Source: a virus
Strand: one strand, 5' to 3'
Virus record (IMG/VR): IMGVR_UViG_3300031539_000310
Span: 1 to 24,130 of that record
Length of the DNA: 24,130 bases
Shown here one piece after another: positions 1,607 to 19,666 of the stretch. The notes beneath the pieces are model-generated. The model ran no database searches. It was not told the origin of the DNA and was given only the letters and a program-made list of their open reading frames with translations. Each line of letters begins with the position of its first letter. Within the stretch, counting starts at the first letter, position 1. The translations under genes were made by a program, and so were the position numbers.

Positions 1607-3351
1607 TAGGTCTCAACCCCTAGTTGTTCCGCCGGGGTCTCTACGGGAGGAGGTTTTGCGGGAAGTCTCCGCACGACACGATTGTCAGCGTACGCAGTTC
1701 TCGGCTTTGGGTTGGTACTCTGCAATCCCCCGCCTCCACCCATCATTAAAGGTGCACCCCGCTTAAACATCCGCCCCGCTTCCCGTATGCCAAGCAGTTG
1801 CCCCGTTATCCGCACCACTTCATCCGCCTGAAGCAGTTGACCCTGCATCGCACCGATCTGCTGAAGCGGGAATACCACGGTCGTCAGCCACTGCACCACG
1901 CGCTGATACTGCTCATCCGGGTCAAGGCCGCGTTTGACGTTCGCGTCGATGGCGAAGTTGAAGTCAAGGAAATCACCCTCTCGCAGATCGGGCGTCCACC
2001 TGATGGGAATCGGCACCCCGGTCTTGGTGGTCAGCGTCATATCCCGCGTCCAGATGGGATCGAGCCAACGATGCCATGCCACTTTCCGCAGCACACTGCC
2101 TGCGGTATCGAGCAGGCGCTTGCGGTAGTAGGCCACACGGGTGCCCGCCGACGCCTTGTTCATTTCATCCTGTCCGAGCGTGTTCGCCTGCGGGCCGGTG
2201 CCACCGATCAACTCGGGATTGCCGCTGAGCATATTGAGGAAGTCCCTGCACCACGCCACGATCTGATAACCCGCCTGATCTGCCCCGCCGTAGCTCACCT
2301 GCTGATAGAGTTTGGGGTCGGACACCTCCACTGTGTCACCGTCACTCGATTCGCGGACGGCCTGATTGTCCTGCGTCTTGCCGAGCGGCACGAGCAGTAT
2401 CTGCTTCTCGCGCTCTGCCTGCCGCTGCATCTTGCGGGCAATGGAGTTCATCAGGTCATGAAGGTCTTTTACCACGGCTATCAGCGGCACCTGCAGGAAG
2501 TTGTTGGGCACCTCGCTGAGTTGCCAGTAGTCGTACGGCCCGCCTTCCGGCCCCTTATACTCGCGTTCGTGCAGGTAGTGGTCGCCCGCCGAGTCGGGGT
2601 CGCCGGCCATCGTAACGATCACGTCCTCACTTGGCAGCCAGATGTCCGCGAACTGCACCTTCTCAATCAGGTAGTCGTCGAGCGAGCGCTTGCCCGTAAC
2701 GCTCTCCTCTGGACGCTGACCCGGTTGTACCTGCATCGTGCTCAGTTGCTCGACTTCCTTGCGCCTGCCGCGCATCACGTCGAGCGCCTGCTTCTTGTTC
2801 ATCAGGTAACGGTCGCCCTGGAACTCCATTTCCTCGTCCACGTCAGCCTTAAGATCGCCGATCCAGTTGTGGAACTTGACGCGAGAGACGAACACCTTAC
2901 CGGGGTCGGCCAGATAGTTGCCCTGCTCGTCCCAATGCGGCGAGAAGCGGTCACATTGTCCAGTCTTGGTGATACCGAGCATGAAGAGACTGTCGAGAAT
3001 AACGCGGCACACGGTCTTGGCGAACTTGATTTCCTCAAGTGATAGGTTGATCGCTTCCCTGAATACGCCCGCAAACTCCGCGAGTTCAGTGTTGTAGCTG
3101 GTGACGGTACACTCAGGGTCAATAGCGAGATTGGGTTGAAGGACGCCGACGAGTGCATGCAGCATCTGGAGCGGTTCATGATCCTGCCCCGTGCTTCGCC
3201 CGTAGTACCGTCCTTGAAACTTCTGCTCAAACTCCACCTCGCGGTCGCGGAACGGCTGAAGGTAGTCGTCCGCTTCCTTGATCTTGTCGCGGAGCTTGAC
3301 GGCACTCGACGTTTTCGAGGTCTGGATGTTCGGGGCTTCCATTACTGCCAT
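1606..3351 (-). CDS. Phage portal protein
   Basis: 581 residues, within the usual portal range. The portal forms the dodecameric ring at one capsid vertex through which terminase pumps DNA. The call rests on position directly after terminase, on length, and on features common in portal proteins: an N-terminal helical region, a middle with 'HDLMNSIARKMQRQAEREKQ', a conserved-looking 'NMLSGNPELIGGTGPQANT' stretch typical of the wing/clip region, and a late helix-rich part ending in a Met/Gly-rich tail (MMGGGGG near residue 535). The ATG at 3351 lies inside the last codons of the terminase nuclease gene (10-base overlap). The gene reads without interruption. Confidence 0.85.
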   Translation of the reverse strand: MAVMEAPNIQTSKTSSAVKLRDKIKEADDYLQPFRDREVEFEQKFQGRYYGRSTGQDHEPLQMLHALVGVLQPNLAIDPECTVTSYNTELAEFAGVFREAINLSLEEIKFAKTVCRVILDSLFMLGITKTGQCDRFSPHWDEQGNYLADPGKVFVSRVKFHNWIGDLKADVDEEMEFQGDRYLMNKKQALDVMRGRRKEVEQLSTMQVQPGQRPEESVTGKRSLDDYLIEKVQFADIWLPSEDVIVTMAGDPDSAGDHYLHEREYKGPEGGPYDYWQLSEVPNNFLQVPLIAVVKDLHDLMNSIARKMQRQAEREKQILLVPLGKTQDNQAVRESSDGDTVEVSDPKLYQQVSYGGADQAGYQIVAWCRDFLNMLSGNPELIGGTGPQANTLGQDEMNKASAGTRVAYYRKRLLDTAGSVLRKVAWHRWLDPIWTRDMTLTTKTGVPIPIRWTPDLREGDFLDFNFAIDANVKRGLDPDEQYQRVVQWLTTVVFPLQQIGAMQGQLLQADEVVRITGQLLGIREAGRMFKRGAPLMMGGGGGLQSTNPKPRTAYADNRVVRRLPAKPPPVETPAEQLGVET

Positions 3352-4445
3352 GCCCCTGTCCTCTCTTTCTTGTCAGCCTTGCGGTGCCGCTCCATGAACC
3401 ACTCGATGGTATTGGCTTTGATGGTCGTCGCTACGGCATTGCGCCACGGGGGCATGTCCATGCAGGCGCGAATTGATAGTCCCGTACCCACCACTAAGTC
3501 ACCGTGCTGCTTGCGAGCTTGCGGGTTCAGGTCACGGTTCTTGGAGAGTACTGCCCGTCCGCTGTCGTCGAAGATATACTGCCTGAGCTGATCGAGCAGA
3601 TCGGCACTGCGTACGATCACCCCGCGCGCAGAGAGCACGTCGACGTTTGCCCCGGCGTCCTGTTCGTAGATGTACGCACCTGACAATGGCCGCTGAAGTG
3701 CATCGCCCACCCTGTCCATCAGAAGCGCCTGGCTATTCTCTCCGTGAACCCACCCAAGGCGTCCAGTTGACGTTTCCACGGTCTTGTCATGTGACACGTT
3801 GCGCCAGAGATTGGGGTAGCCGCACTCGTCGGTCATGGTGCGGATAGTCGTAATTCCGTGCATCTTCTGGACACAGCACACCAACGCATCGTTGTAGTGT
3901 CGAGCGATGGCAACTGCAATGTGTCCAAGACGGACAGGCGTCACGTTATTGGCATTGAACTCGACTGCCTGCTCCATCCCCTGCACGGCGAATCCCTCGA
4001 TAGTCGAGTCCGATTGGAAAGTGCCTGCGCCCACGTCCACGCCAAGTCCGAACATCATTTGCGCAGATGCGGTACCTTGCGGGAGATTGACGGGCATGCG
4101 GTCGGGTGGAATCCAGATGCGAATGCGCCCGTCGCTTTTCTCATAGAGTGTGCCGTTCTCGCCCACTTCCATGCGCATCAGGGGATTGCGGACGTTGGAG
4201 CGCTGCACGTCGATCCAAGAGCGCTCGAATACGCCCTCGCCTGACTGTGCGTTGGGGTCGCGCAGCATCTCCTTGCGGAACTGCCAGCTATCGACTCCGC
4301 CCATCTGACGGGCAAGCTCGGCGATCACCACGCTCGTCAGTCCTTCGGGGTCGGCATCCATGTCGATGTCAACGCGTACGAGTCCCGTGGAGAGGGGCGT
4401 GACTACCAGTCCGGGCATGAGTTGTGTGGCTTCGGTCAGTTGCAT
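3342..4445 (-). CDS. terL (C-terminal part): Large terminase, C-terminal nuclease half (split gene)
   Basis: 367 residues with the RNase H-like nuclease of large terminases, which cuts concatemeric phage DNA. Motif I is GLGVDVGAG (133-141, D137) followed by S145-D146-S-T. Motif III is HGDLVVG with D316. The first 80 residues (PGLVVTPLS..., GVFERSWIDV) match the linker that normally follows the ATPase domain, so nothing seems lost at the split. Motif II, usually containing a catalytic Glu, reads ALVCCVQKMHG (187-197) with no acidic residue. The start ATG has AGGA six bases upstream. The frame is open for another 19 codons upstream. The ATPase half lies at 6192-7013. Confidence 0.8.
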   Translation of the reverse strand: MQLTEATQLMPGLVVTPLSTGLVRVDIDMDADPEGLTSVVIAELARQMGGVDSWQFRKEMLRDPNAQSGEGVFERSWIDVQRSNVRNPLMRMEVGENGTLYEKSDGRIRIWIPPDRMPVNLPQGTASAQMMFGLGVDVGAGTFQSDSTIEGFAVQGMEQAVEFNANNVTPVRLGHIAVAIARHYNDALVCCVQKMHGITTIRTMTDECGYPNLWRNVSHDKTVETSTGRLGWVHGENSQALLMDRVGDALQRPLSGAYIYEQDAGANVDVLSARGVIVRSADLLDQLRQYIFDDSGRAVLSKNRDLNPQARKQHGDLVVGTGLSIRACMDMPPWRNAVATTIKANTIEWFMERHRKADKKERTGAWQ

Positions 4446-4469
4446 CAGGCGTCCTATGCCCCGAAACGA

Positions 4470-4511
4470 AAACGACCGCTCACCTGCTTGTGCTCAAGTG
4501 AACGGCCGTTT
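4470..4511 (-). terminator. 17-bp hairpin just upstream of the nuclease half
   Basis: On the minus-strand RNA the arms 4511-4495 and 4486-4470 pair over 17 positions with an 8-base loop and three G-U wobbles. A run UUUUCGUUU follows. On the plus strand the wobbles would become A-C mismatches, so the structure is tuned to the minus-strand transcript. It resembles a rho-independent terminator, but it ends 24 bases before the start of the terminase nuclease gene, so it could also be an intron or RNA-processing element. Confidence 0.6.
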
Positions 4512-4523
4512 GGTCGTTTGATC

Positions 4524-4546
4524 GTCCCGCTTCATGAGGGCGGGAC
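4524..4546 (-). other. Short hairpin after the HNH-AP2 gene
   Basis: Perfect 7-bp inverted repeat GTCCCGC/GCGGGAC with a 9-base loop, between the endonuclease stop (4564) and the longer hairpin at 4470-4511. It could be a transcript end or part of a larger RNA fold. There is no clear U-run after it. Confidence 0.4.
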
Positions 4547-4563
4547 TATCGGGGGTATTTTTG

Positions 4564-5073
4564 TCAGACTGCGTTACATCTGGCGAATTCTCCGAATCCT
4601 TCCTTTGCGGCGGTGTCATACGTTCTTGCCGCTTCTGCCTCTGAATCGAAACGACCAAGTTTCTTGAGTTTGCCGCCCACCTTGATCGCCGCACGCCATT
4701 TCATTCTATCGGGATCCCAAAAGACGCCCTTGAATTGGCTCGAACCTGCCTGTTTCTTTCTGTTGCCTTGATTCTGCGAATGTGTGCAGAATCGCAGATT
4801 CGCACGTCTGTTGTCGAGGCCGTCTCTGTTCTTATGGTCAAGTTCTTGGCCTTTCGATGCGCCCAGAATCACCCGGTGCATAAGAAAGGCGGTCTTCTTG
4901 CCTCTCGCGGTTGTGTGCGATACCGCATAGTTCCTTCCGTTTGGCGCCGCCATGGTCGTCCAGCGGTACCCGCGCACCAAGAGAACGTCCTGTTTCTCGA
5001 TCACCGCAATCAACCCACGGGTAAGTTCTACGCCAACAGAACCATCTTCTCTTTCAAAGAACCTGTTCTTCAT
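4564..5073 (-). CDS. HNH-AP2 homing-type endonuclease
   Basis: 169 residues. The middle (66-104) is an HNH_3-type nuclease: HRVILGA, then ELDHKNRDGLDNRRANLRF with H80, N88 and N92. The C-terminal 55 residues (113-168: SQFKGVFWD..., WRAAIKVGGK, KKLGRFDSEAEAARTYD) are an AP2 DNA-binding domain. This pairing is characteristic of mobile phage endonucleases. The ATG follows AAGGAG by six bases. The gene lies inside the insert that separates the ATPase and nuclease halves of large terminase, which is just where a homing enzyme would be expected. It is the likely cause of the split. Confidence 0.9.
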   Translation of the reverse strand: MKNRFFEREDGSVGVELTRGLIAVIEKQDVLLVRGYRWTTMAAPNGRNYAVSHTTARGKKTAFLMHRVILGASKGQELDHKNRDGLDNRRANLRFCTHSQNQGNRKKQAGSSQFKGVFWDPDRMKWRAAIKVGGKLKKLGRFDSEAEAARTYDTAAKEGFGEFARCNAV

Positions 5074-5169
5074 GTCGCACTCCTTGTTGTGCCCTTGGGT
5101 TCATAAGCGGGAAGGGCGACCAAGGTATTCGCCCGTTCAGGAGCTACCCTATCCCGCTGGTTCTCCGTC
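5074..5169 (-). other. Folded spacer between tRNA and HNH-AP2 gene
   Basis: In the minus-strand transcript a perfect 7-bp outer repeat AGCGGGA/TCCCGCT encloses a perfect 6-bp repeat GGGCGA/TCGCCC. The spacer then carries the AAGGAG ribosome site of the endonuclease gene. No coding potential is seen. The nested hairpin may help release the tRNA 3' end or shield the ribosome site. Confidence 0.4.
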
Positions 5170-5245
5170 TGGAGCCGCTGGTGGGAATCGAACCCACAAC
5201 CTCCCGCTTACAAAGCGGGCGCTCTGCCAGTTGAGCTACTACGGC
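5170..5245 (-). tRNA. tRNA-Thr (anticodon UGU)
   Basis: Full cloverleaf of 76 bases including an encoded CCA. The acceptor stem GCCGUAG/CAGCGGC has six pairs, one a G-U, and a single A-A mismatch at position 6-67. The D arm has GCUC/GAGC. The anticodon stem CCCGC/GCGGG is perfect with loop UUUGUAA, giving anticodon UGU, which reads the Thr codon ACA. The T arm is GUGGG UUCGAUU CCCAC. The discriminator base is U. The gene lies inside the insert that splits the large terminase gene and is transcribed in the same direction. The host uses or tolerates it, or it is cargo. Confidence 0.93.
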
Positions 5246-5382
5246 GTATGGGCGGTCTCACGGCAGCGAGAGCACTATGGCAAACGCCCATTAGCGAGCC
5301 GCCCGTTATCGTCTATCGGGCCGGGTCGGTTGGAGAATCTGAGGAACCGTGCCCGGCCCATGCGCGGTGGGTGGCCGCGTGA
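5246..5382 (-). other. Gene-free stretch with GC-rich hairpin before the tRNA
   Basis: Between the lipoprotein stop and the tRNA. An 8-bp perfect repeat GGGCCGGG (5318-5325) / CCCGGCCC (5352-5359) is extended by three more pairs after a bulge. No U-run follows on the minus strand, so it is a weak terminator candidate. It may be a processing site in front of the tRNA. Confidence 0.35.
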
Positions 5383-5925
5383 TTACAGAATATCGCTGCC
5401 TGTCGCCTTGACTCGCGCGTCGATGAACGCGCTGACTTCAGTAGGAACCGATGCTTCATTCACTGCCCTTGCTGCGGTAATCGCGCCCCCCGCCTTGACC
5501 GCCTTGACCAGCGTGTCTATCGCTTCCCGCGCCGTTGCCTGTTCCCTCTTGGCTTTTGCGGTCTGCACCTGTCTCACGACACCGAATCCAGCGCCGAGAG
5601 CCGTTATCCCAAGCATCGCTATGGGGGCGTAAGGGACGGGCACAACCGCCGACACAATGCCTATCGCGGTATTGATGATGTAGTCGCGCTGCTCGATCTG
5701 AGCCTGAATGTCGGCGTTGGCAATCGTCACCTTCTCGGCCGTCAGTTTGACCTTGGCTTCAAGTGTTGCTTTCTCCACGTCGAGTTGCGACTTCACCGTC
5801 ACGATCTCAGCCTTCAGTTGAGAGGGCGTCACCTGTTTCGCGGGGTCGATGATCGAGGGCGTTTTGATCGAGCAACCGGACGCGACGAGCAGCACTGCAA
5901 GCACTACGAGTTTCTTCATATCCAT
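5383..5925 (-). CDS. Phage-encoded lipoprotein with coiled coil and hydrophobic segment
   Basis: 180 residues from the ATG at 5925, preceded by GAGAGGAC. A later in-frame ATG at 5919 is the alternative. A lipoprotein signal peptide is clear: MDMKK, a hydrophobic stretch LVVLAVLLVA, and the lipobox VASGC with the modified Cys near residue 17. Then comes a charged helical region rich in Lys, Glu and Gln (about 35-75), a long hydrophobic Ala/Val/Pro segment (about 80-115) able to enter a membrane, and a second basic helix. It should be anchored in the outer or inner membrane. A lysis-related (spanin-like) or superinfection role is possible, but the sequence does not prove it. It sits inside the split terminase. 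Confidence 0.7.
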   Translation of the reverse strand: MDMKKLVVLAVLLVASGCSIKTPSIIDPAKQVTPSQLKAEIVTVKSQLDVEKATLEAKVKLTAEKVTIANADIQAQIEQRDYIINTAIGIVSAVVPVPYAPIAMLGITALGAGFGVVRQVQTAKAKREQATAREAIDTLVKAVKAGGAITAARAVNEASVPTEVSAFIDARVKATGSDIL

Positions 5926-5939
5926 TTGTCCTCTCATTA

Positions 5940-6179
5940 TCAGTCCACACTCCGCATCCACCGAATGCCGTACAGCGTCTTTGCACACTTAACCTTGCAG
6001 GCGGAAATCGATGGAAGAGGTTCACTTTCCCTTACATCACAGACCACCGTCTCTCCCTTCTTCTCTACTTCATCGTGTACCGTCGTCTTGCCCACACACA
6101 GAATCACTTCCCCGTCTTTCGCCGCTTTGACCGCTTCGTTCAGCGTCTTGTACTCAACACCGTTCAGTGTCGCGGGCAT
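5940..6179 (-). CDS. Small protein of unknown function following the terminase ATPase half
   Basis: 79 residues. The ATG at 6179 is 12 bases after the stop of the terminase ATPase half and has a perfect AAGGAG eight bases upstream. The sequence starts MPATLNGVEYKTLNEAVKAAKDGE and contains four cysteines (C48 or nearby, then CKVKC near 61-65). I recognise no family. It is followed after 14 bases by the lipoprotein gene, whose ribosome site lies in the gap, so the two are probably co-translated. Confidence 0.65.
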   Translation of the reverse strand: MPATLNGVEYKTLNEAVKAAKDGEVILCVGKTTVHDEVEKKGETVVCDVRESEPLPSISACKVKCAKTLYGIRWMRSVD

Positions 6180-6191
6180 CGTCGTTCTCCT

Positions 6192-7013
6192 TTACCTCAG
6201 CCGATCATGGCACAGATCGTAGAACCTGCCCGGATGGGCGCTACTGCATCCGTAGAACCAGCCGCCCCCGCGCAGGCCGGCGATAAACGCGGCATACGCA
6301 TTCCCAAACTCAGGCTGGAAATTGCACTCATCGCTGAATACTCCAGATGGCGTGTGCGAGCGGATAATGTCACCGCCTTCAGGTATCGCCCACAGCATCG
6401 AGTTCAGATGTGGAAACACAATCTTGTTGGACTGGAAGTTGGTCTTCATGTCCAGTTGGGGTTCCAGCATCTCGATGCCTGGCACGTGCCGCAGGATGAA
6501 CTTGCAGCGGCCCAGCAATCCCGCCGCCGCATCCTCGTTGCCTATCGCGTCCTCCTCGCGTTTGGTCTGCAAGAATACGAGTCTGCCACGGTGGAAAAGC
6601 ACGTCCCATAACGACACGCAGCACCCGAACCACGTGGCCATGATCTGGCGGCACTTGTCGAGCACCATTCCCGTGTTCTCGATCATCTCCCCCGTCTTGG
6701 GCGATCGCACGAGTAGACTGCGATTGTAGGTCTCCAGCCAGAGACGGGACATTTGCTGGATGTGCGGACGGTGTGCGGGGAACGGCTTGATCGGCTGACG
6801 CTTGTCTTTCGGATCGAGTGAGAACACAAACCACTTCATGAACTCCAGGGGGTCATTCTTTGCAAGCTCCCACCGCGCCCGCAACTGCAACTCGATCCAC
6901 TCCGGCTCGGTCAGGGAGGCCAACTGGCTCTGCAATTCCTCGTCGGTCATCACCGTCGACGGTAAACTCAGCGTCTCTTGGTGCTTCGATTGCTGCAACA
7001 GGACGGGCGGCAT
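6192..7013 (-). CDS. terL (N-terminal part): Large terminase, N-terminal ATPase half (split gene)
   Basis: 273 residues covering the whole packaging-motor ATPase domain. A deviant Walker A, K120-C-R-Q-I-M-A-T-W128, matches the KxRQxxxTW form of large terminases. Walker B is GVFSDE with D228-E229. The coupling motif is CSSAHPG (256-262). The protein stops at HDRLR, exactly where the linker to the nuclease domain should begin, and that linker with the nuclease is found at 3342-4445. The ATG at 7013 follows GGAG. An internal ATG at 6950 lacks a ribosome site. The first 161 bases overlap the end of the small terminase gene in another frame. Confidence 0.88.
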   Translation of the reverse strand: MPPVLLQQSKHQETLSLPSTVMTDEELQSQLASLTEPEWIELQLRARWELAKNDPLEFMKWFVFSLDPKDKRQPIKPFPAHRPHIQQMSRLWLETYNRSLLVRSPKTGEMIENTGMVLDKCRQIMATWFGCCVSLWDVLFHRGRLVFLQTKREEDAIGNEDAAAGLLGRCKFILRHVPGIEMLEPQLDMKTNFQSNKIVFPHLNSMLWAIPEGGDIIRSHTPSGVFSDECNFQPEFGNAYAAFIAGLRGGGWFYGCSSAHPGRFYDLCHDRLR

Positions 7014-7629: not shown

Positions 7630-7643
7630 CTGTCTGCTCCAGT

Positions 7644-7656
7644 GGACATCATGTCC
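7644..7656. promoter_or_regulatory. 13-base palindrome in the small-terminase leader
   Basis: GGACAT-C-ATGTCC is a perfect palindrome around a single central base. It lies between the predicted transcription start and the GTG of the small terminase gene. A repressor site or a short RNA hairpin are both possible. Confidence 0.4.
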
Positions 7657-7680
7657 GCTAAACCATGCGCTTCTACAAGC

Positions 7681-7708
7681 AGTATACCACGAAAAGAGCG
7701 GATGTCAA
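7681..7708 (-). promoter_or_regulatory. Strong sigma-70-like promoter of the left arm
   Basis: On the minus strand TTGACA (7708-7703), a 16-base spacer, and TATACT (7686-7681). The match to the bacterial consensus is 6/6 and 5/6. The predicted start near 7674 gives a leader of about 45 bases to the small terminase GTG. This is the clearest promoter in the window and would drive the packaging and head genes. Confidence 0.85.
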
Positions 7709-7749
7709 GTAAAATCCCCATGCGCAGGGGAAAAATGATGAGAATTATG

Positions 7750-7866
7750 GACATGGGGGGCTGGGGGGAGAGGGGAACGGGCATGAGGACGTGGTGATAG
7801 GTGGACATGAGCGTTGCGGGAACCCCCTCTTCCCTTTCCCATACCCTATCCTATTACCCCCATGTC
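7750..7866. repeat. 10-bp inverted repeat GACATGGGGG / CCCCCATGTC
   Basis: Perfect arms at 7750-7759 and 7857-7866, 97 bases apart. The left arm is part of a G-quadruplex motif. The repeat brackets C- and G-rich tracts at the start of the gene-free region between the two arms. Confidence 0.55.
7755..7781 (+). other. G-quadruplex motif, plus strand
   Basis: Four guanine runs of 6, 6, 4 and 3 with short loops (CT, AGA, AAC). It fits the standard quadruplex pattern. It faces a second motif on the other strand at 7896-7932. Confidence 0.5.
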
Positions 7867-7895
7867 AGAATGGAACTGATTGGGGGAGGAAAAGA

Positions 7896-7932
7896 CCCCC
7901 CCGTTACCCCCTTACCCCCTACACACCCCCCC
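7896..7932 (-). other. G-quadruplex motif, minus strand
   Basis: On the minus strand four guanine runs of 7, 5, 5 and 7 with loops TGTGTA, TAA and TAAC. This is a very strong quadruplex motif in a region without genes. Confidence 0.6.
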
Positions 7933-8087
7933 AACTACGTTGGACCTCACTTGTCGAGAGGAATTGAACCACAGTGGACGGCGCTGCGGGCGGAAGTGAG
8001 TACTTCTGGCTCGCTTCCGGCTTGGTTCTCGCTCTCAACTCACACGTCGAGTCGAAATGAACCACAGCGCCGGACGCGCCGGACATG

Positions 8088-8149
8088 GAGAGCGGCGTTT
8101 TCGGCCTGTTTCTCGCCCGTCGACCAGCAGATCGTCGAAAACCGCTCTC
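8088..8149. repeat. Long hairpin in the control region
   Basis: GAGAGCGG (8088-8095) pairs with CCGCTCTC (8142-8149), and TTTTCG (8098-8103) with CGAAAA (8136-8141). This gives 14 pairs with a two-base bulge and a 32-base loop. It is the longest hairpin of the gene-free region. No gene overlaps it. A single-strand origin, a small RNA or a protein-binding cruciform are all possible. Confidence 0.5.
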
Positions 8150-8188
8150 TCGCCCCACTTCCCTTGCTCAACTCTCTCATTATGCCCG

Positions 8189-8217
8189 TTGACAAGTGAT
8201 GCACGGACAATTAGACA
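8189..8217 (+). promoter_or_regulatory. Weak promoter candidate
   Basis: TTGACA at 8189-8194 is perfect. After 17 bases follows TAGACA, a poor -10. The word GACAAGTGA overlapping the -35 also occurs at 8903-8911 and inverted at 7947-7955, so it may be a protein site rather than a promoter. Confidence 0.3.
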
Positions 8218-8343
8218 AGAGCGAAAAGGAGCACGGAAGTCGAAAAATCATAAAATCGCGGGAGAAGACTAGCTAGAGCGCACAGCAGGCGAATAGGGAA
8301 CCGCGACGGCCCGCGCGCGCGTGCGTTCAAGTGCCAACAAAAC

Positions 8344-8367
8344 CGCGTATAACGTACTTTATACGCG
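8344..8367. repeat. 24-base palindrome CGCGTATA-N8-TATACGCG
   Basis: Perfect 8-bp arms separated by 8 bases. The half-site word GCGTATAACG recurs at 8442-8451. The right half extended, TTATACGCGAT(T/G)ATCTG, recurs at 8748-8764 with 16 of 17 bases equal. Such spaced copies fit replication iterons or repressor operators. Confidence 0.6.
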
Positions 8368-8764
8368 ATTATCTGCCTGCCTAGCACGCTAATAGTGGCT
8401 TGATCTGGTGCTGATAACTACTACTATCGACGCGAATAACTGCGTATAACGGACATGCTGACAGGCGAGCACGCTCCACTGCTGGCAAGAGAGCACGATG
8501 TTAGCACGCGAGCATAGAGAGACAAGTCGTCCTTTTCTGACTGCGACGTCAGTAATGACGCTGCTATCAGTGATGACTACTGGGTCACTGATGACTCTGG
8601 CGTCAAATGTGACTACTGGGTCACAATGGGACGAAGTGTCTCGTTATGGGGCTGGGATTAGCGGGGTAACAAGCTACAAAGAGCACTGTAGCAAGTGAGC
8701 ATGATGATAGGCGATCATTATTAAGAAGCGTTCCTGATAAGCGCCTGTTATACGCGATGATCTG
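8359..8764 (+). repeat. Iteron-like short repeats
   Basis: The 17-mer TTATACGCGAT(T/G)ATCTG lies at 8359-8375 and 8748-8764. The hexamer AGCACG lies at 8383, 8468, 8492 and 8503. The octamer GATAGGCG lies at 8706 and 8764, with another copy outside this span at 9082. All are in gene-free DNA. The mixture looks like a replication or control region. No initiator gene is identified in the window. Confidence 0.5.
8566..8624. promoter_or_regulatory. Cluster of TGAC/GTCA palindromes (operator-like)
   Basis: ATCAGTGA (8566-8573) and TCACTGAT (8585-8592) are perfect inverted arms. The 15-mer TGACTACTGGGTCAC occurs at 8574-8588 and again 36 bases on at 8610-8624, and contains GTGAC/GTCAC arms. Close spacing and symmetry suggest sites for a dimeric DNA-binding protein. 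Confidence 0.5.
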
Positions 8765-8787
8765 ATAGGCGCGAAAATAAATCTTTG

Positions 8788-8796
8788 TGCTATAAG
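8788..8796 (+). promoter_or_regulatory. Possible extended -10 promoter for the right arm
   Basis: TGCTATAAG carries the TGn extension and a -10 with five of six consensus bases. No good -35 lies upstream. It is the best plus-strand candidate before the first right-arm gene, but it is weak. Confidence 0.3.
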
Positions 8797-8917
8797 TCTA
8801 ATGGACACGCCACTATTGTCGATTTACGCTCTTTTTTCTACTCGATTGGCACGCTTTTCTTACTATAAGGTGATAGACGACGATGATAAACCGATGATCT
8901 TTGACAAGTGAATGTCC

Positions 8918-9076
8918 GAGCTTGCCCGACGCGCGTGAGAACCGCAAGGGCAAGGCAGTCAGGCGCTGGTTTTACTCCAGCACTGCGGCGGATAGAGATA
9001 CGATGATGGTGCCGTACCGGTCTGACTGTGTTCGACTCACAGTACGGCAGCCAGCAAGCTCGACGCTGTGTCGGGC
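8918..9076 (+). ncRNA. Structured leader RNA candidate with tRNA acceptor/T-arm mimic
   Basis: Segment 8918-8930 has three perfect pairing partners: 8921-8927 with 8948-8954 (CUUGCCC/GGGCAAG), 8918-8925 with 9054-9061 (GAGCUUGC/GCAAGCUC), and 8924-8930 with 9070-9076 (GCCCGAC/GUCGGGC). These exclude one another or form a pseudoknot. Inside lie a hairpin with a 5-bp stem and 7-base loop (8965-8981, extended by GCAGU/ACUGC) and, at 9010-9053, UGCCGUA/UACGGCA plus CUGUG-UUCGACU-CACAG followed by GCCA. This is exactly the 7+5 geometry, T-loop and CCA end of a tRNA, without D or anticodon arms. It ends 36 bases before the first right-arm start codon. Confidence 0.55.
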
Positions 9077-9112
9077 AGGACGATAGGCGCAACAGGATAA
9101 AGGGAAAAGACG

Positions 9113-13853: not shown

Positions 13854-13963
13854 CCCGCGCACCATCACCGCTCCAACTCGCCTGCATGTACCTGGCGCTG
13901 GCCGTGCTCGCCCTGTGGCTGGCGGCGCTGGTTGTCGGCGCGGTGTGGCGGTGGATTTTCTGA
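13850..13963 (+). CDS. 37-residue membrane protein
   Basis: ATGA overlap with the previous gene. A single hydrophobic segment spans residues 9-33 (about LACMYLALAVLALWLAALVV), flanked by Arg at residue 3 and Trp-Arg-Trp near the end. It should insert in the inner membrane. A holin-like or toxin-like effect is possible from size alone. No homology seen. Confidence 0.6.
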   Translation: MTRAPSPLQLACMYLALAVLALWLAALVVGAVWRWIF

Positions 13964-14023
13964 CTGAACTTGAACTACCGCTCTGTGCCAATCCCGACAC
14001 CTCGATCGGGTAACGGGGCGAAT

Positions 14024-14074
14024 GGCCGACCGGCGCGGCTAGAATTGTCTTTTCCCCTAGTCGCGTCGGCGGCC
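14024..14074 (+). other. 18-bp intergenic hairpin
   Basis: Arms 14024-14042 and 14057-14074 pair over 18 positions with one bulged A and two wobbles, with a 14-base loop. It ends 20 bases before the next ATG. It is the longest hairpin in the 9-14 kb series. There is no U-run. Confidence 0.6.
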
Positions 14075-14094
14075 GCTATTTATGAAAGGAACAA

Positions 14095-14409
14095 ATGATG
14101 GCGAAATACGGAGAACCGTGGCGTATTGACTCCAGTATGTGTGGCGACTATATCCAGACAGACACCGGAGCCGTTGCCTCTATCCACCAAATGGATCGGG
14201 CAGAACGCGCGATTGCCTGCGCCAACGCCCTTGCCGGCGTGAAGAATCCGGGGGCGATACCGGAAGTGATTGGAGTCCTGACGTTGACCGCGCACGGGAG
14301 TCATGACCCGTTCTGCCCTATCGCTAGCGGTTTTGGCGACAAGTGCATCTGCCATGTGGGTAAGGCGCGCGCCGCCCTCGCCAAACTCGACGAGGAGCCG
14401 AAGCCATGA
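14095..14409 (+). CDS. Conserved-looking phage protein of unknown role
   Basis: 104 residues, double ATG at 14095/14098 after AAAGGAACAA. The phrase 'RAERAIACANALAGV' (35-49) resembles a motif often seen in small phage hypothetical proteins that also begin 'YGEPWRID'. Four cysteines in the C-terminal half (FCPIAS..., CICHVG) might bind metal. No function is known to me. It leads a coupled set of three genes. Confidence 0.65.
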   Translation: MMAKYGEPWRIDSSMCGDYIQTDTGAVASIHQMDRAERAIACANALAGVKNPGAIPEVIGVLTLTAHGSHDPFCPIASGFGDKCICHVGKARAALAKLDEEPKP

Positions 14410-14639: not shown

Positions 14640-14839
14640 CCGATGAACAGCAGACCCCCACCCCCTACTTTCTCGACGGCTGGTGCCAATGCCAGCGATG
14701 TGGGCACGAGTGGCGCCCCCTCAAGCGACCCGAAAACATTATCGCCTGCCCCAGGTGCCATTCCTTCAAGTGGCGCGTTCCCAAAGCGGACAACCGCTCC
14801 CCGTTCTCAAAAGAGGGCGACGCGAAAGATTCCGCTTGA
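14636..14839 (+). CDS. Zinc-ribbon protein
   Basis: 67 residues, ATGA overlap, AAAGGAAG upstream. A rubredoxin-like or zinc-ribbon pair: C17/C19/C22 in CQCQRCGHEW and C38/C41 in CPRCHSFKW. The pattern 'CxRCGHEW...CPRC..FKW' is typical of small phage zinc ribbons. The stop codon is inside the -35 of the promoter at 14836. Confidence 0.75.
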   Translation: MTDEQQTPTPYFLDGWCQCQRCGHEWRPLKRPENIIACPRCHSFKWRVPKADNRSPFSKEGDAKDSA

Positions 14840-14863
14840 CTTTTGGAAATCATGTGTCATAAT
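14836..14863 (+). promoter_or_regulatory. Sigma-70-like promoter
   Basis: TTGACT (14836-14841), 16-base spacer, CATAAT (14858-14863): five of six consensus bases in each box. Predicted start near 14870. It drives the short unit ending in the terminator at 14945-14995. Confidence 0.7.
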
Positions 14864-14868
14864 GCTTG

Positions 14869-14995
14869 TAGAGGGGCGCAACGCCCTTCAAGGAGTAGCA
14901 AAATGGCTCGTTGGTCACGCGAGTGGTCAGTTCAGCGCAGAATTGGGGCAGCCGTGGATTCCGCGAGGTTTCCAGTGACCCGGCTGCCCCTTTTT
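14869..14995 (+). ncRNA. Small RNA or attenuated leader of about 125 bases
   Basis: Between promoter and terminator. It begins with hairpin GGGCG-CAA-CGCCC (14874-14886), then a clear ribosome site AAGGAG (14890-14895) seven bases before an ATG at 14903. The frame from this ATG (MARWSREWSVQRRIG...) runs through the terminator hairpin and overlaps the next gene, so full-length translation is doubtful. Ribosomes on this frame would cover the terminator. Either a trans-acting small RNA or a leader peptide controlling read-through into the gene at 15160 fits. No other gene lies in 14840-15159. A weak AT-rich promoter-like stretch (TATAAA at 15035) follows. Confidence 0.55.
14945..14995 (+). terminator. 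Rho-independent terminator
   Basis: GGGGCAGCCG (14945-14954) and CGGCTGCCCC (14981-14990), perfect 10 bp, directly followed by TTTTT. The 26-base loop contains a further TGGA/TCCA pairing. Confidence 0.8.
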
Positions 14996-15159
14996 GCGCC
15001 CCGTCCATTCCCCTTTCCAGGTTTTTTTGCCGCCTATAAATATACATTATCGGACGTTATCAGGGAAGTCCGTCTAAGAACCATCAGCCGAGGACGGGCA
15101 ATTCTTCGTAGCCCATGCCCTCCACGAAACCGAGATTATCGGTACAAGGAGGTCTCAAC

Positions 15160-15766: not shown

Positions 15767-15871
15767 ATCGGGGCGCACGGCGCACCAGTTACGAGGAGCA
15801 ATGTACTCCACGGACGATTTCTACGCTGGCTAAGCAACAGGGATGTGCGACCGCGCGCCCCGATTATTTTT
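15767..15871 (+). ncRNA. Second terminator-like hairpin, attenuator or small RNA
   Basis: ATCGGGGCGC (15767-15776) and GCGCCCCGAT (15855-15864), perfect 10 bp around a 78-base loop, then TATTTTT. The loop holds a small hairpin GGAG/CTCC and a 10-codon ORF (15801-15833, MYSTDDFYAG) with GAGGAG only two bases upstream. It ends about 30 bases before the ParB start, too close for a promoter in between, so termination here must be conditional if the ParB operon is read through. Confidence 0.55.
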
Positions 15872-15902
15872 CCGTGTAGATAAGCGGAACAAGGAGAAGA
15901 AT

Positions 15903-16736
15903 GTGTCTCCCAAAATCGACCCCGAATTTCAGGCATTGATTCCGCCCCTCTCCGAAGAAGAACGCGCACAACTCGAAGCAAACCTCGTGAAGGACGGTTG
16001 CCGCGATCCTCTCGTCGTTTGGGCGGGGCACGACATCCTCCTCGACGGCCACACGCGGCTTGAGATTTGCACTCGGCGAGGAATCGACTTCAAGACGGTC
16101 GAGATTCAACTGGCCGACCGGGAAGCCGCGGCGGACTGGATTGACTGCAACCAACTTGGCAGGCGGAATCTCAAGCCCGATCAGATGACCATGCTGATAG
16201 GACGGAGATACAACAGAGCGAAGAAAGCGGTTCCAAATCCGCAGGGTATCGGTGGCAAGTCGGGGAAGATTGTTAAGGATCAAAATGATCCCCAACAAAC
16301 GACCGCTGACCGCCTCGCCAAAGAGCACGGCGTCTCTGCCCCTACGGTCAAACGTGCCGGTGCCTTTGTCGCCGCCGTCGAGAAGCTGAAGGAGATCGAC
16401 CCTGACATCGAGAAGAAGGTCATGGCCGGAACCGCGCCGCCCAAGGCCGCCGTCGTCGAGGCCGCCAAACTGGTTGACGAGAAACCGGAGGCGGCCAAGA
16501 CCCTACTCGAAAAACCAAAGCCCGCGATAAAGCACCCTAAAGTAGCCAAACCCGCCGTACGCGGCTCGTGGGAGAACACGCGGAATCTAGAAGATACACT
16601 CAAACAGATCAAAGACATCATCGCCGAGATCGCCGATCTCCATCCTGAAAAATCAACCCGACACCGGATAACGGATTTGGCTCGTGATATTGTGAAGGCC
16701 CTGGAACGCCTTATTTCTCGAATTGAAAAGGAGTAA
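15903..16736 (+). CDS. ParB-domain protein
   Basis: 277 residues. The start is GTG at 15903, six bases after AAGGAG. An ATG two bases earlier is out of frame. Residues 14-105 form a ParB/Srx-type N-terminal domain: GCRDPLVVW, ILLDGHTRLEIC with the D48-G-H50 signature, and DCNQLGRRNLKPDQ. Residues 133-152 (TADRLAKEHGVSAPTVKRAG) are a helix-turn-helix that would bind DNA. The rest is helical and basic. ParB-fold proteins act in partition, gene regulation or as nucleases or CTPases. A regulator or partition-like role is likely here. No ParA is present. The next gene follows after six bases. Confidence 0.82.
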   Translation: MSPKIDPEFQALIPPLSEEERAQLEANLVKDGCRDPLVVWAGHDILLDGHTRLEICTRRGIDFKTVEIQLADREAAADWIDCNQLGRRNLKPDQMTMLIGRRYNRAKKAVPNPQGIGGKSGKIVKDQNDPQQTTADRLAKEHGVSAPTVKRAGAFVAAVEKLKEIDPDIEKKVMAGTAPPKAAVVEAAKLVDEKPEAAKTLLEKPKPAIKHPKVAKPAVRGSWENTRNLEDTLKQIKDIIAEIADLHPEKSTRHRITDLARDIVKALERLISRIEKE

Positions 16737-16742
16737 TAGAAG

Positions 16743-17600
16743 ATGTACAAGTTGACTATGGCTCGACAGATTGAAGTACCCCCTCACAAAGCGGAGGCGC
16801 TACTTCAAATGAATACGTTTGCCGGGCAACGTCCAAAGTCTCCTCGCACTGTGGATTGCTATGCCTCGCTTATGAAAGACGGCAGATTCCGAGTGGCCGA
16901 GATCGCTGTGGTCGAAATGCCAAACGGAACTCGTTATCTGATGAACGGCCAACAGACATGCCAAGCAGGAATTATATCGCAGGTGACCTTCAAGGCATCG
17001 TACCAAGAGTACTCCTGCGAGACCGATCAAGACCTTTGGCAACTATACGGTTCCTTCGATACTTATCGCGGACGCACTGAGGCCAATATCATGCTAGCGG
17101 CGCGAGGACTATTCCAAAATGCCGAGCTCCACGAGATTCCCGTACGTGTGCTGCAGCAATCTGCGGCGGCGCTTCTGTACCTTGGCAACGACAGATTGCC
17201 TCGTTTTAATGAGAGAACGTTGACAAAAACGGACAAGGCAAATCTCGCTGACCAGCACAAAGACGAGGTTCTTCTCATCAATCAGTACACCGCAGTGGCC
17301 AGCATCTCGTTGAAGGTCGCGGTGGTCGCGGCGTTGCTCGCCACATTCCGCAAGAACCCCGACAAGGCGCGGCCGTTCTGGGATCGTGTCCTGATCGGCG
17401 ATCACCTTGAACGGGGCACCCCGCAATACCACCTCCACAGATTTCTCGCATCGCCGGGAGCATCGGTCAACGGCGGACTCAAGGGGCATACCATCAGATA
17501 CAAGACGTGCATCGCGTGGTGGAATTCGTTCATCGACGGCGGAACGCGCAAGACGGTGAAAGTCGAAGCCATGAAGACACTGCCGGAAGTCAAAGGATGA
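16743..17600 (+). CDS. ParB/DGQHR-like protein
   Basis: 285 residues, ATG six bases after the ParB stop, with AAGGAG in the end of that gene. Residues 32-110 resemble the phage ParB-like family with an NGQHS/T core: 'KDGRFRVAEIAVVEMPNG' then YLMNGQQTCQAGI (66-77) and LYGSFDTYRGR (about 100-110). In this copy the His of NGQH is Gln. DGQHR-type domains occur in DndB and in many phage proteins of unknown role. The C-terminal half is helical. Its pairing with a ParB gene suggests a joint role. Confidence 0.65.
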   Translation: MYKLTMARQIEVPPHKAEALLQMNTFAGQRPKSPRTVDCYASLMKDGRFRVAEIAVVEMPNGTRYLMNGQQTCQAGIISQVTFKASYQEYSCETDQDLWQLYGSFDTYRGRTEANIMLAARGLFQNAELHEIPVRVLQQSAAALLYLGNDRLPRFNERTLTKTDKANLADQHKDEVLLINQYTAVASISLKVAVVAALLATFRKNPDKARPFWDRVLIGDHLERGTPQYHLHRFLASPGASVNGGLKGHTIRYKTCIAWWNSFIDGGTRKTVKVEAMKTLPEVKG

Positions 17601-18312: not shown

Positions 18313-18524
18313 GCAAGGACAGCATACTCGGAAAATTGACGCTCGGCGAGGTGATCGAGATCGAGGCGGAAGTCATGCGCGGCGCGGGCAACGATCCCGA
18401 AAAGCTGCAAATCTGCCGCGAACTTGTCCTCTCGCACCTCGCGGATATCCAACTGGCAATGGGCATCCGTAATCCGCTCGTCGCCTATCTGATGAGGATC
18501 GCCCGACAGGAGGTAATAGGATGA
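18309..18524 (+). CDS. Unrecognised small protein
   Basis: 71 residues, ATG at 18309 (ATGA overlap). Acidic, helical (LGEVIEIEAEVMRGAGND, LAMGIRNPLVAYLMRIARQ). The longer frame upstream overlaps the previous gene and is ignored. It may be a tail-assembly-like small protein, but nothing supports a specific call. Confidence 0.6.
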   Translation: MSKDSILGKLTLGEVIEIEAEVMRGAGNDPEKLQICRELVLSHLADIQLAMGIRNPLVAYLMRIARQEVIG

Positions 18525-18859
18525 GCAAGATAATCAACCCCCGCAACCTCAAACACGCCACGCCCGAACAGGTGGCCGCCGCACAGCGCGGAGAACTCGC
18601 GGGCATGCCGCTGGACGTGAATGCGGCGCTCTCCAATCACATGCGGATGGCCGCCAATCTGTTGATGGTTGCCATGAAGGGCGGCCAGATACCCGACGTG
18701 CAGACCGTGGTGCGACTCCATATGCTCACCGGACAGGCAATGAGCAATATCATAGCTACCCAACTCCAGATGCAGCAGAACGCGGCACAGGCCCCCGCCG
18801 AGACGCCCAAGATCGTGACGCCCGGCAGTGCGAGCGGGAAGGGAGAGCCGCAATGCTGA
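18521..18859 (+). CDS. Unrecognised helical protein
   Basis: 112 residues, ATGA overlap. Middle part is Met/Ala-rich and helical (NHMRMAANLLMVAMKGG, VVRLHMLTGQAMSNI), the end is a disordered Gln/Ala/Pro tail. No family recognised. Confidence 0.6.
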   Translation: MSKIINPRNLKHATPEQVAAAQRGELAGMPLDVNAALSNHMRMAANLLMVAMKGGQIPDVQTVVRLHMLTGQAMSNIIATQLQMQQNAAQAPAETPKIVTPGSASGKGEPQC

Positions 18860-18954
18860 GAGCAATAATCGCGCTTGTCGTGCTGTTTCTGCTGCTGCGC
18901 TACGGCTACATTGCCAGCGCGGTTTTCGATAGTGTCGGCGGGTTCAGTTGGTGA
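18853..18954 (+). CDS. 33-residue membrane protein
   Basis: ATG at 18853 overlaps the end of the previous gene by 7 bases, after GGGAGAG. A hydrophobic helix spans residues 3-17 (RAIIALVVLFLLLRY). It is the last gene before the structured non-coding stretch. Too small for homology to decide. Confidence 0.5.
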   Translation: MLRAIIALVVLFLLLRYGYIASAVFDSVGGFSW

Positions 18955-19429
18955 TAACCGAGGCCACGGATATGGCCGGGTGCGGCCTTTAGACTTTTTC
19001 CTCCGCGCCCGGCCAGGGCCTCGGATGCTCTTTGAAATCGTGCCGGCCCGCGAGCCGTCTGCAAGACAGCCGCGCAAAGGTTTGCCCTCGGCGAGCGGGA
19101 ATGAACGCTGACGGGGGGTTGCGGGCCGGCTTGATCTTTGATGCGGTGCAGGGCGATAGGGGCACCTTATTCGTGGCTAAGCCAGCCAGCAGGAAACGGG
19201 GGCACCTAAGTGGCTCTAAGAAGGAAACAATCCTGCCCCTGCACCGCTTGATTTTCGTGCGGCAGAGCGTCCTGCCCCATGACGCATTAAACCGGGCGGC
19301 AGTCAGGAACTGCCAAGCACCCTTGGGTGGCTAACCGGCGCGAGGAGGTCTTCGACGCCGGGACAGAAACCAGCACGAGCGCAATCGTGCCTGCCGCACG
19401 ATAAACTTTGACGTTACGGAGAATTTGAC
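18955..19429 (+). ncRNA. Large structured non-coding RNA candidate
   Basis: 475 bases without a credible gene. It contains three nested perfect stems and a terminal switch. Stem A: CCGAGGCC (18958-18965) with GGCCTCGG (19017-19024), enclosing a 12-bp stem 18974-18985/19003-19014 with a 17-base loop. Stem B: GCCGGCCCGC (19042-19051) with GCGGGCCGGC (19121-19130). Stem C: GCGGTGCAGGG (19143-19153) with CCCTGCACCGC (19237-19247). Inside C are two copies of GGGGCACCT (19159, 19199), two of AGGAAAC (19191, 19222) and two TCCTGCCCC (19231, 19270) whose TGCCCC pairs with GGGGCA. Each CACC is followed by a short hairpin and GTGGCTAA or a variant, also at 19317-19334. No U-run ends it. Confidence 0.6.
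19373..19401 (+). promoter_or_regulatory. Three-part RNA switch before the gene at 19430
   Basis: GCACGA (19373-19378), TCGTGC (19385-19390), GCACGA (19396-19401). The middle word can pair with either neighbour but not both, giving two alternative 6-bp hairpins with loops of 6 and 5 bases. It lies 15 bases before the GGAG of the gene at 19430. A translational switch or protein site is likely. Confidence 0.5.
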
Positions 19430-19666
19430 ATGCCGAAACAGATTGACCCCATAATCGAGTGTGCGCGCGAGATTGCCGCGAGCGAGATATGCTGCGTGGG
19501 GACGTTCGCGTGGCGGGCGCAGGTCGTCGAGAAGGTGCTGCGCAAGTGGTTCGGCGCCAAGATGCCCGCGCCCGACGTGGAGCATATTGCCCGCCGTGAC
19601 GCGCAGGAAAAGTACCACAGCGCCGTGGCCGATTTCCACGAGAAGCGCGCGGAGATGGACAAGTGA
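19430..19666 (+). CDS. Unrecognised small protein
   Basis: 78 residues, ATG after GGAGAATTTGAC. Two helices (IIECAREIAASEICCVGTF, AWRAQVVEKVLRKWFG) and a charged C-terminus. Three cysteines without a metal-site pattern. It is the first gene after the structured RNA and may be controlled by the switch at 19373-19401. Confidence 0.62.
   Translation: MPKQIDPIIECAREIAASEICCVGTFAWRAQVVEKVLRKWFGAKMPAPDVEHIARRDAQEKYHSAVADFHEKRAEMDK

Follow-up and report, generated by a model that had tools for sequence, protein, structure and literature searches.

A 475-nt structured region between genes of a virus genome: a candidate orphan large phage RNA

Introduction

Only a few large structured RNAs are known from phages, GOLLD and ROOL being the examples, and RNAs of these two types are thought to act in trans as structural or scaffold RNAs. 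Here we describe the region at positions 18955-19429 of IMG/VR virus record IMGVR_UViG_3300031539_000310 (24,130 bases, the whole of which is referred to below as the window), a sound candidate, on the predicted folding of a single sequence, for an orphan large structured phage RNA of 475 nucleotides (nt). GOLLD and ROOL are longer, are often located near transfer RNA (tRNA) islands and depend on intermolecular contacts that are conserved: GOLLD measures at least about 800 nt, its 3' half being conserved, and ROOL is characterized by several pseudoknots, a conserved kissing loop between molecules and a frequent tRNA-island context (PMC12286853). If the region is indeed an RNA of this kind, an unrelated and shorter molecule would show that large phage RNAs arose more than once, and would give structural and functional studies a smaller target.

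The predicted RNA resembles GOLLD in being large, highly structured and phage-encoded, protein-free by prediction and with multiple junctions, and it resembles ROOL, which occurs in phages and prophages, in being a large structured RNA without a known protein partner. It differs from both in lacking any Rfam match, from GOLLD in its length and in having no tRNA nearby, and from ROOL in that its loop contacts do not exceed chance. Like long cis-regulatory leaders and riboswitches it lies within an operon, directly 5' of a ribosome site; unlike them it matches no family, and neither an expression platform nor a terminator/antiterminator pair was recognized.

Rfam gave no match at the gathering threshold or up to E=10, with the region alone or with its flanks, in agreement with an earlier note on this DNA, made by a model from the letters and their reading frames, in which the RNA class had not been recognized. 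Membership of GOLLD was rejected on its unmatched covariance model (up to E=10) and on length, and membership of ROOL on its covariance model, unmatched both at the gathering threshold and at E-values of up to 10. Group I and group II introns, RNase P RNA, transfer-messenger RNA (tmRNA) and the known self-cleaving ribozymes were likewise rejected, their family models being unmatched, and ARAGORN found no tRNA or tmRNA in the region. The only tRNA of the window, tRNA-Thr (5170-5245), is located 14 kb away; the proximity to a tRNA island that is frequent, if not obligatory, for ROOL and GOLLD is thus not seen here.

Coding potential

The rightward arm of the genome is composed of small genes that abut or overlap one another (median gap -4 nt). 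The region occupies the entire space between the stop codon of the 18853 gene and the ATG of the 19430 gene; it is the largest gap of this arm, the next-largest measuring 320 and 241 nt.

18955..19429, + strand: non-coding structured region of 475 nt, identified by its flat codon score in six frames, its fold z-score and its being the largest gap of the arm

A codon score for which the genes of the window itself served as training set remained near zero in all six frames from about 18955 to 19400 and was clearly positive on both flanks; the gap is therefore not a missed gene. Two internal open reading frames (ORFs) of 100 and 77 amino acids (aa; 19032/19101-19334) were rejected as coding with scores of -0.04 and 0.07, compared with 0.13-0.63 for most genes, and neither had a database match. 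The 475 gene-free bases in a packed genome to which the earlier note had drawn attention are thus real, and the protein gene that it named as the finding to be set against an RNA was found in no frame.

Folding energy and domain architecture

Fold z-scores were taken against dinucleotide shuffles. The 475-nt region scored -5.7 on the + strand and -4.3 on the - strand; a 491-nt version scored -4.7 on the + strand, while the - strand ranged from -4.2 to -4.3 across tests. With a pooled standard deviation the region reached -6.1, and among 316 random 475-nt windows of other viral contigs a single one scored -5 or lower (in phage DNA, a frequency of about 0.3%), that one falling below the region (-7.6 vs -6.1). 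The strongly structured non-coding RNA that had been proposed for this position is consistent with these values, which we regard as good evidence, derived from one sequence and its modelled fold, that the region probably represents a selected + strand RNA structure. The case rests on strand-biased folding energy and not on motifs.

The predicted + strand fold is composed of four consecutive domains, D1 to D4, with closing helices of 8-12 base pairs (bp) whose probabilities (0.88-1.0) held when 150 nt of flank were added on each side. The G+C-rich domains are separated by A/U-rich linkers, as can be read from the sequence itself.

18958..19024, + strand: D1, long hairpin of 8 bp + 13 bp, pair probabilities 0.95-1.0
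19025..19036, + strand: linker 1, ATGCTCTTTGAA, containing CTTTGA
19037..19135, + strand: D2, three inner stems enclosed by helices of 4 + 12 bp, closing helix probability 0.98
19136..19142, + strand: linker 2, CTTTGAT
19143..19247, + strand: D3, perfect 11-bp stem closing a four-way junction, arm probabilities 0.72-0.99
19248..19254, + strand: linker 3, TTGATTT
19255..19401, + strand: D4, multibranch loop closed by an 11-bp stem, probabilities 0.78-1.0
19402..19429, + strand: linker 4, containing CTTTGA and the GGAG of the next gene (19418-19421)

D1 pairs 18958-18965 with 19017-19024 (8 bp, perfect) and 18973-18985 with 19003-19015 (13 bp, one G-U) around a pyrimidine-rich loop of 17 nt, CCTTTAGACTTTTTCCT. 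The closing stem of D2 (19042-19053/19119-19130) comprises 12 bp, 10 of these perfect. In D3, the stem 19143-19153/19237-19247 and the arms 19154-19173, 19174-19188 and 19189-19236 are predicted to meet with zero unpaired junction bases; a perfect junction of this type, with at least four ways, appeared in only 5 of 400 shuffles of the region. D4, closed by 19255-19265/19391-19401, carries hairpins at 19267-19285, 19298-19314, 19326-19371 (inner part 19335-19361) and 19373-19390, the first of which (GCGTC/GACGC, probability 0.88) displays TGCCCC in its loop. The stems listed in the earlier note are thus confirmed, at mean pair probabilities of 0.88-1.0, the range found for the five long stems. 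The number of helices of at least 8 bp is marginal, being reached by 23 of 400 shuffles.

On the + strand the domains scored z = -5.3 (D1), -3.3 (D2), -3.4 (D3) and -5.3 (D4), compared with -4.5, -3.2, -2.6 and -3.6 on the - strand. Each thus folds on the + strand as well as or better than on the - strand, which points to an RNA and not to an element acting as DNA. Such an element, either a cruciform or protein-binding repeats serving replication, recombination or packaging, or else a mobile element in decay, would account for the good folding of the - strand and for D1 being a near-perfect palindrome. However, iterons, terminal inverted repeats and a skew turn are all absent at 18955-19429, the skew turn and a repeat-rich 1.5-kb gap being found at 7.6-9.1 kb instead, and we consider a DNA-level role improbable.

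Transcription and possible function

The region is flanked by two genes of the same strand, the first overlapping the end of a 112-aa gene (18521-18859) and the second followed by genes that overlap by 4 nt. Comparison of the product of the second with Pfam and PHROG gave nothing below E=0.2.

18853..18954, + strand: upstream neighbour, 33-aa probable membrane peptide as judged from its sequence, codon score +0.43
19430..19666, + strand: downstream neighbour, 78-aa protein, codon score +0.63

Neither a sigma-70-like promoter nor a + strand intrinsic terminator was found in or beside 18955-19429; therefore, the region is presumably transcribed along with the operon, on a polycistronic rightward transcript.

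We tentatively favour, at somewhat less than an even chance, a large multi-domain RNA that is contained in, or cut from, this transcript and acts in trans. The + strand of the region would be read as part of the transcript, D1 to D4 would each fold independently to give a globular multi-domain RNA, host RNases would cut the A/U-rich single-stranded linkers and flanks, and the folded unit so freed may act in trans in a structural or scaffolding role, alone or together with a protein or the ribosome. The region may in this respect work like GOLLD and ROOL without being a member of either. That it further represents a new class of large phage RNA, with four self-contained domains, a perfect four-way junction and a function of its own during infection, is possible but rather doubtful.

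The main competing explanation is a long cis-acting leader, a riboregulator controlling translation or stability of the 19430 gene and later genes through a fold that forms around the GGAG or away from it. The structure ends 28 nt before the ATG of that gene, the missing promoter and terminator would suit a leader, and the minimum free energy fold in a long context contains a weak outer helix between TCTTTG of linker 1 and CGGAGA of the ribosome site. This helix, however, has two G-U pairs, closes a loop of about 380 nt and does not come out as probable when the wider context is folded; moreover, no terminator/antiterminator pair or known riboswitch is present, and 475 nt is long for a leader. 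The Shine-Dalgarno-like GGAG of the 19430 gene, exposed outside the folded domains, also speaks against a simple leader. A cis-acting leader thus appears unlikely. Since the domains leave this GGAG free and a host RNase could cut in the A/U-rich linkers, an RNA acting in trans is favoured over the other four readings.

The same linkers could serve to release D1 to D4 as several small RNAs from one precursor. Four back-to-back domains that each fold independently, and the word CTTTGA in linkers 1, 2 and 4, are in line with such an array, but CTTTGA is not enriched in the window (13 occurrences vs 11.2 expected), and the domains have no significant common ancestry: the similarity of the best pair, D3/D4, was reached by 19 of 300 shuffles, and the structure models R1 (D3) and R2 (D4) do not detect each other. 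A precursor of this type is quite improbable.

Several results weigh against the favoured trans-acting RNA, beginning with the repeated modules and built-in kissing contacts that the earlier note had put forward. The words themselves are real, GGGGCACCT, AGGAAAC, TCCTGCCCC and GTGGCTAA each occurring twice in the region, with both copies of GGGGCACCT and both AGGAAAC words in D3. Their number is nevertheless reached by 8-9% of shuffles: 7 repeated 8-mers vs 3.1 expected (83 of 1000 shuffles), with a corresponding 88 of 1000 for repeated 9-mers, and the best self-alignment was equalled in 101 of 200. The half-copies of D3, aligned alone, beat 498 of 500 shuffles in a comparison that was chosen after seeing the data. 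TGCCCC does lie in the loop of GCGTC/GACGC, and six-base loop complementarities exist (GGGGCA with TGCCCC, TTTCCT with AGGAAA), yet loop-loop contacts of at least 6 bp are found in 10-44% of shuffles (29 or 133 of 300, depending on how the loops are drawn). The kissing and module arguments are to be dropped as evidence, though they may be true. To these are added the lack of a promoter or terminator belonging to the region itself, the single sequence available, with no relative for covariation, and the comparable folding of other 240-nt windows, non-genic or coding, of the same contig (13921-14160, z = -5.3; 121-360, z = -4.95).

Taken at their strongest, such observations would suggest a decayed gene or filler without RNA function, whose folding energy derives from G+C-rich inverted repeats: neither repeats nor loop contacts exceed chance, a similar z is seen in a few further windows of the contig, and the collections searched gave no sign of conservation. 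Set against this are the z-score of the region relative to dinucleotide shuffles, its low base rate in phage DNA and the absence of a coding trace in any frame, and this explanation is the least probable of those considered.

Search for relatives

Searches of IMG/VR, GTDB genomes, phage records and plasmids yielded no relatives of the RNA and no close relatives of the phage. A blastn comparison of the RNA with phages and plasmids gave no homologue, the plasmid matches being short and located in unrelated genes. DNA patterns based on the repeated words hit 77 stretches in IMG/VR and 23 in GTDB, about as many as chance would give, and a comparison of every one of these stretches by nhmmer found nothing significant. 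At the protein level, the portal-position and TerL-like proteins had no match in 50,697 phage records, and exact-peptide scans of IMG/VR and GTDB with the portal, clamp loader, DUF5131, 16743 and 19430 proteins found none, such scans missing relatives below roughly 70% identity and the collections possibly lacking near-identical records, so that absence is not proof. Profile scans with a ParB-like and a phrog_5931 alignment yielded 80 and 10 loci, respectively, from distant relatives in unrelated phages; none of these contains the RNA, and none has the portal or terminase in common with this phage. The D3 and D4 structure models found nothing convincing in the 0.88 Mb of these loci, nor did the D3 model in 36 whole records. 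A hint of structured DNA downstream of ParB in relatives was rejected, the DNA in question turning out to be coding.

Two contigs of one Lentisphaerae metagenome-assembled genome (L176, 1500-1640, minus strand, and L191, 3250-3350) have in common a stem-loop, intergenic and about 100 nt long, CCACC...GGAATACACCG...TTTGCAGGAAACCCACGGCACCTAT.GGTGGCTGAC, with different neighbours and no Rfam match, which is possibly a small RNA or a repeat family. The lowest-scoring window of the folding survey (z = -7.6; L020, 8760-9010) belongs to a gene-poor stretch of an unrelated A+T-rich viral contig and contains a long near-perfect hairpin and several stems, again with no Rfam match.

Other features of the genome

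The leftward arm encodes a small terminase-like gene, a TerL-like gene and a 581-aa gene called portal by position, whose product matches no family. The TerL-like gene (6192-7013, minus strand, 273 aa) matches only positions 275-415 of the 807 positions of the phrog_2 large terminase profile, and is followed, within 3345-7013 on the minus strand, by a 201-aa gene, the tRNA-Thr, an HNH-AP2 endonuclease gene and a 367-aa gene. The latter may hold the missing terminase half, which would possibly make this a split terminase; no intron family was matched in this stretch, nor does the 367-aa protein have a named relative.

The two divergent arms are separated by a gene-poor gap of 1.5 kb (7630-9112) with lower G+C content and an 18/36-bp tandem repeat at 8548-8632. 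The G+C skew turns here, and the gap is a candidate origin or control region.

Two further structured stretches were observed. A 136-nt gap at 13960-14095 contains strong + strand hairpins (z = -3.8), its enclosing 240-nt window being the one with z = -5.3. At 14836-15010, a near-consensus sigma-70-like promoter (TTGACT-16-CATAAT) is followed by a structured stretch and a long G+C-rich hairpin, GGGGCAGCCG...CGGCTGCCCC with TTTTT, and by a small ORF with a good ribosome site at 14903, which together look like a short independent transcript. Finally, a ParB-N-like gene and, directly after it, a phrog_5931-type gene (15843-17600) form a pair that is conserved across otherwise unrelated phages, being present also in contigs L138, L154, L156 and L157.
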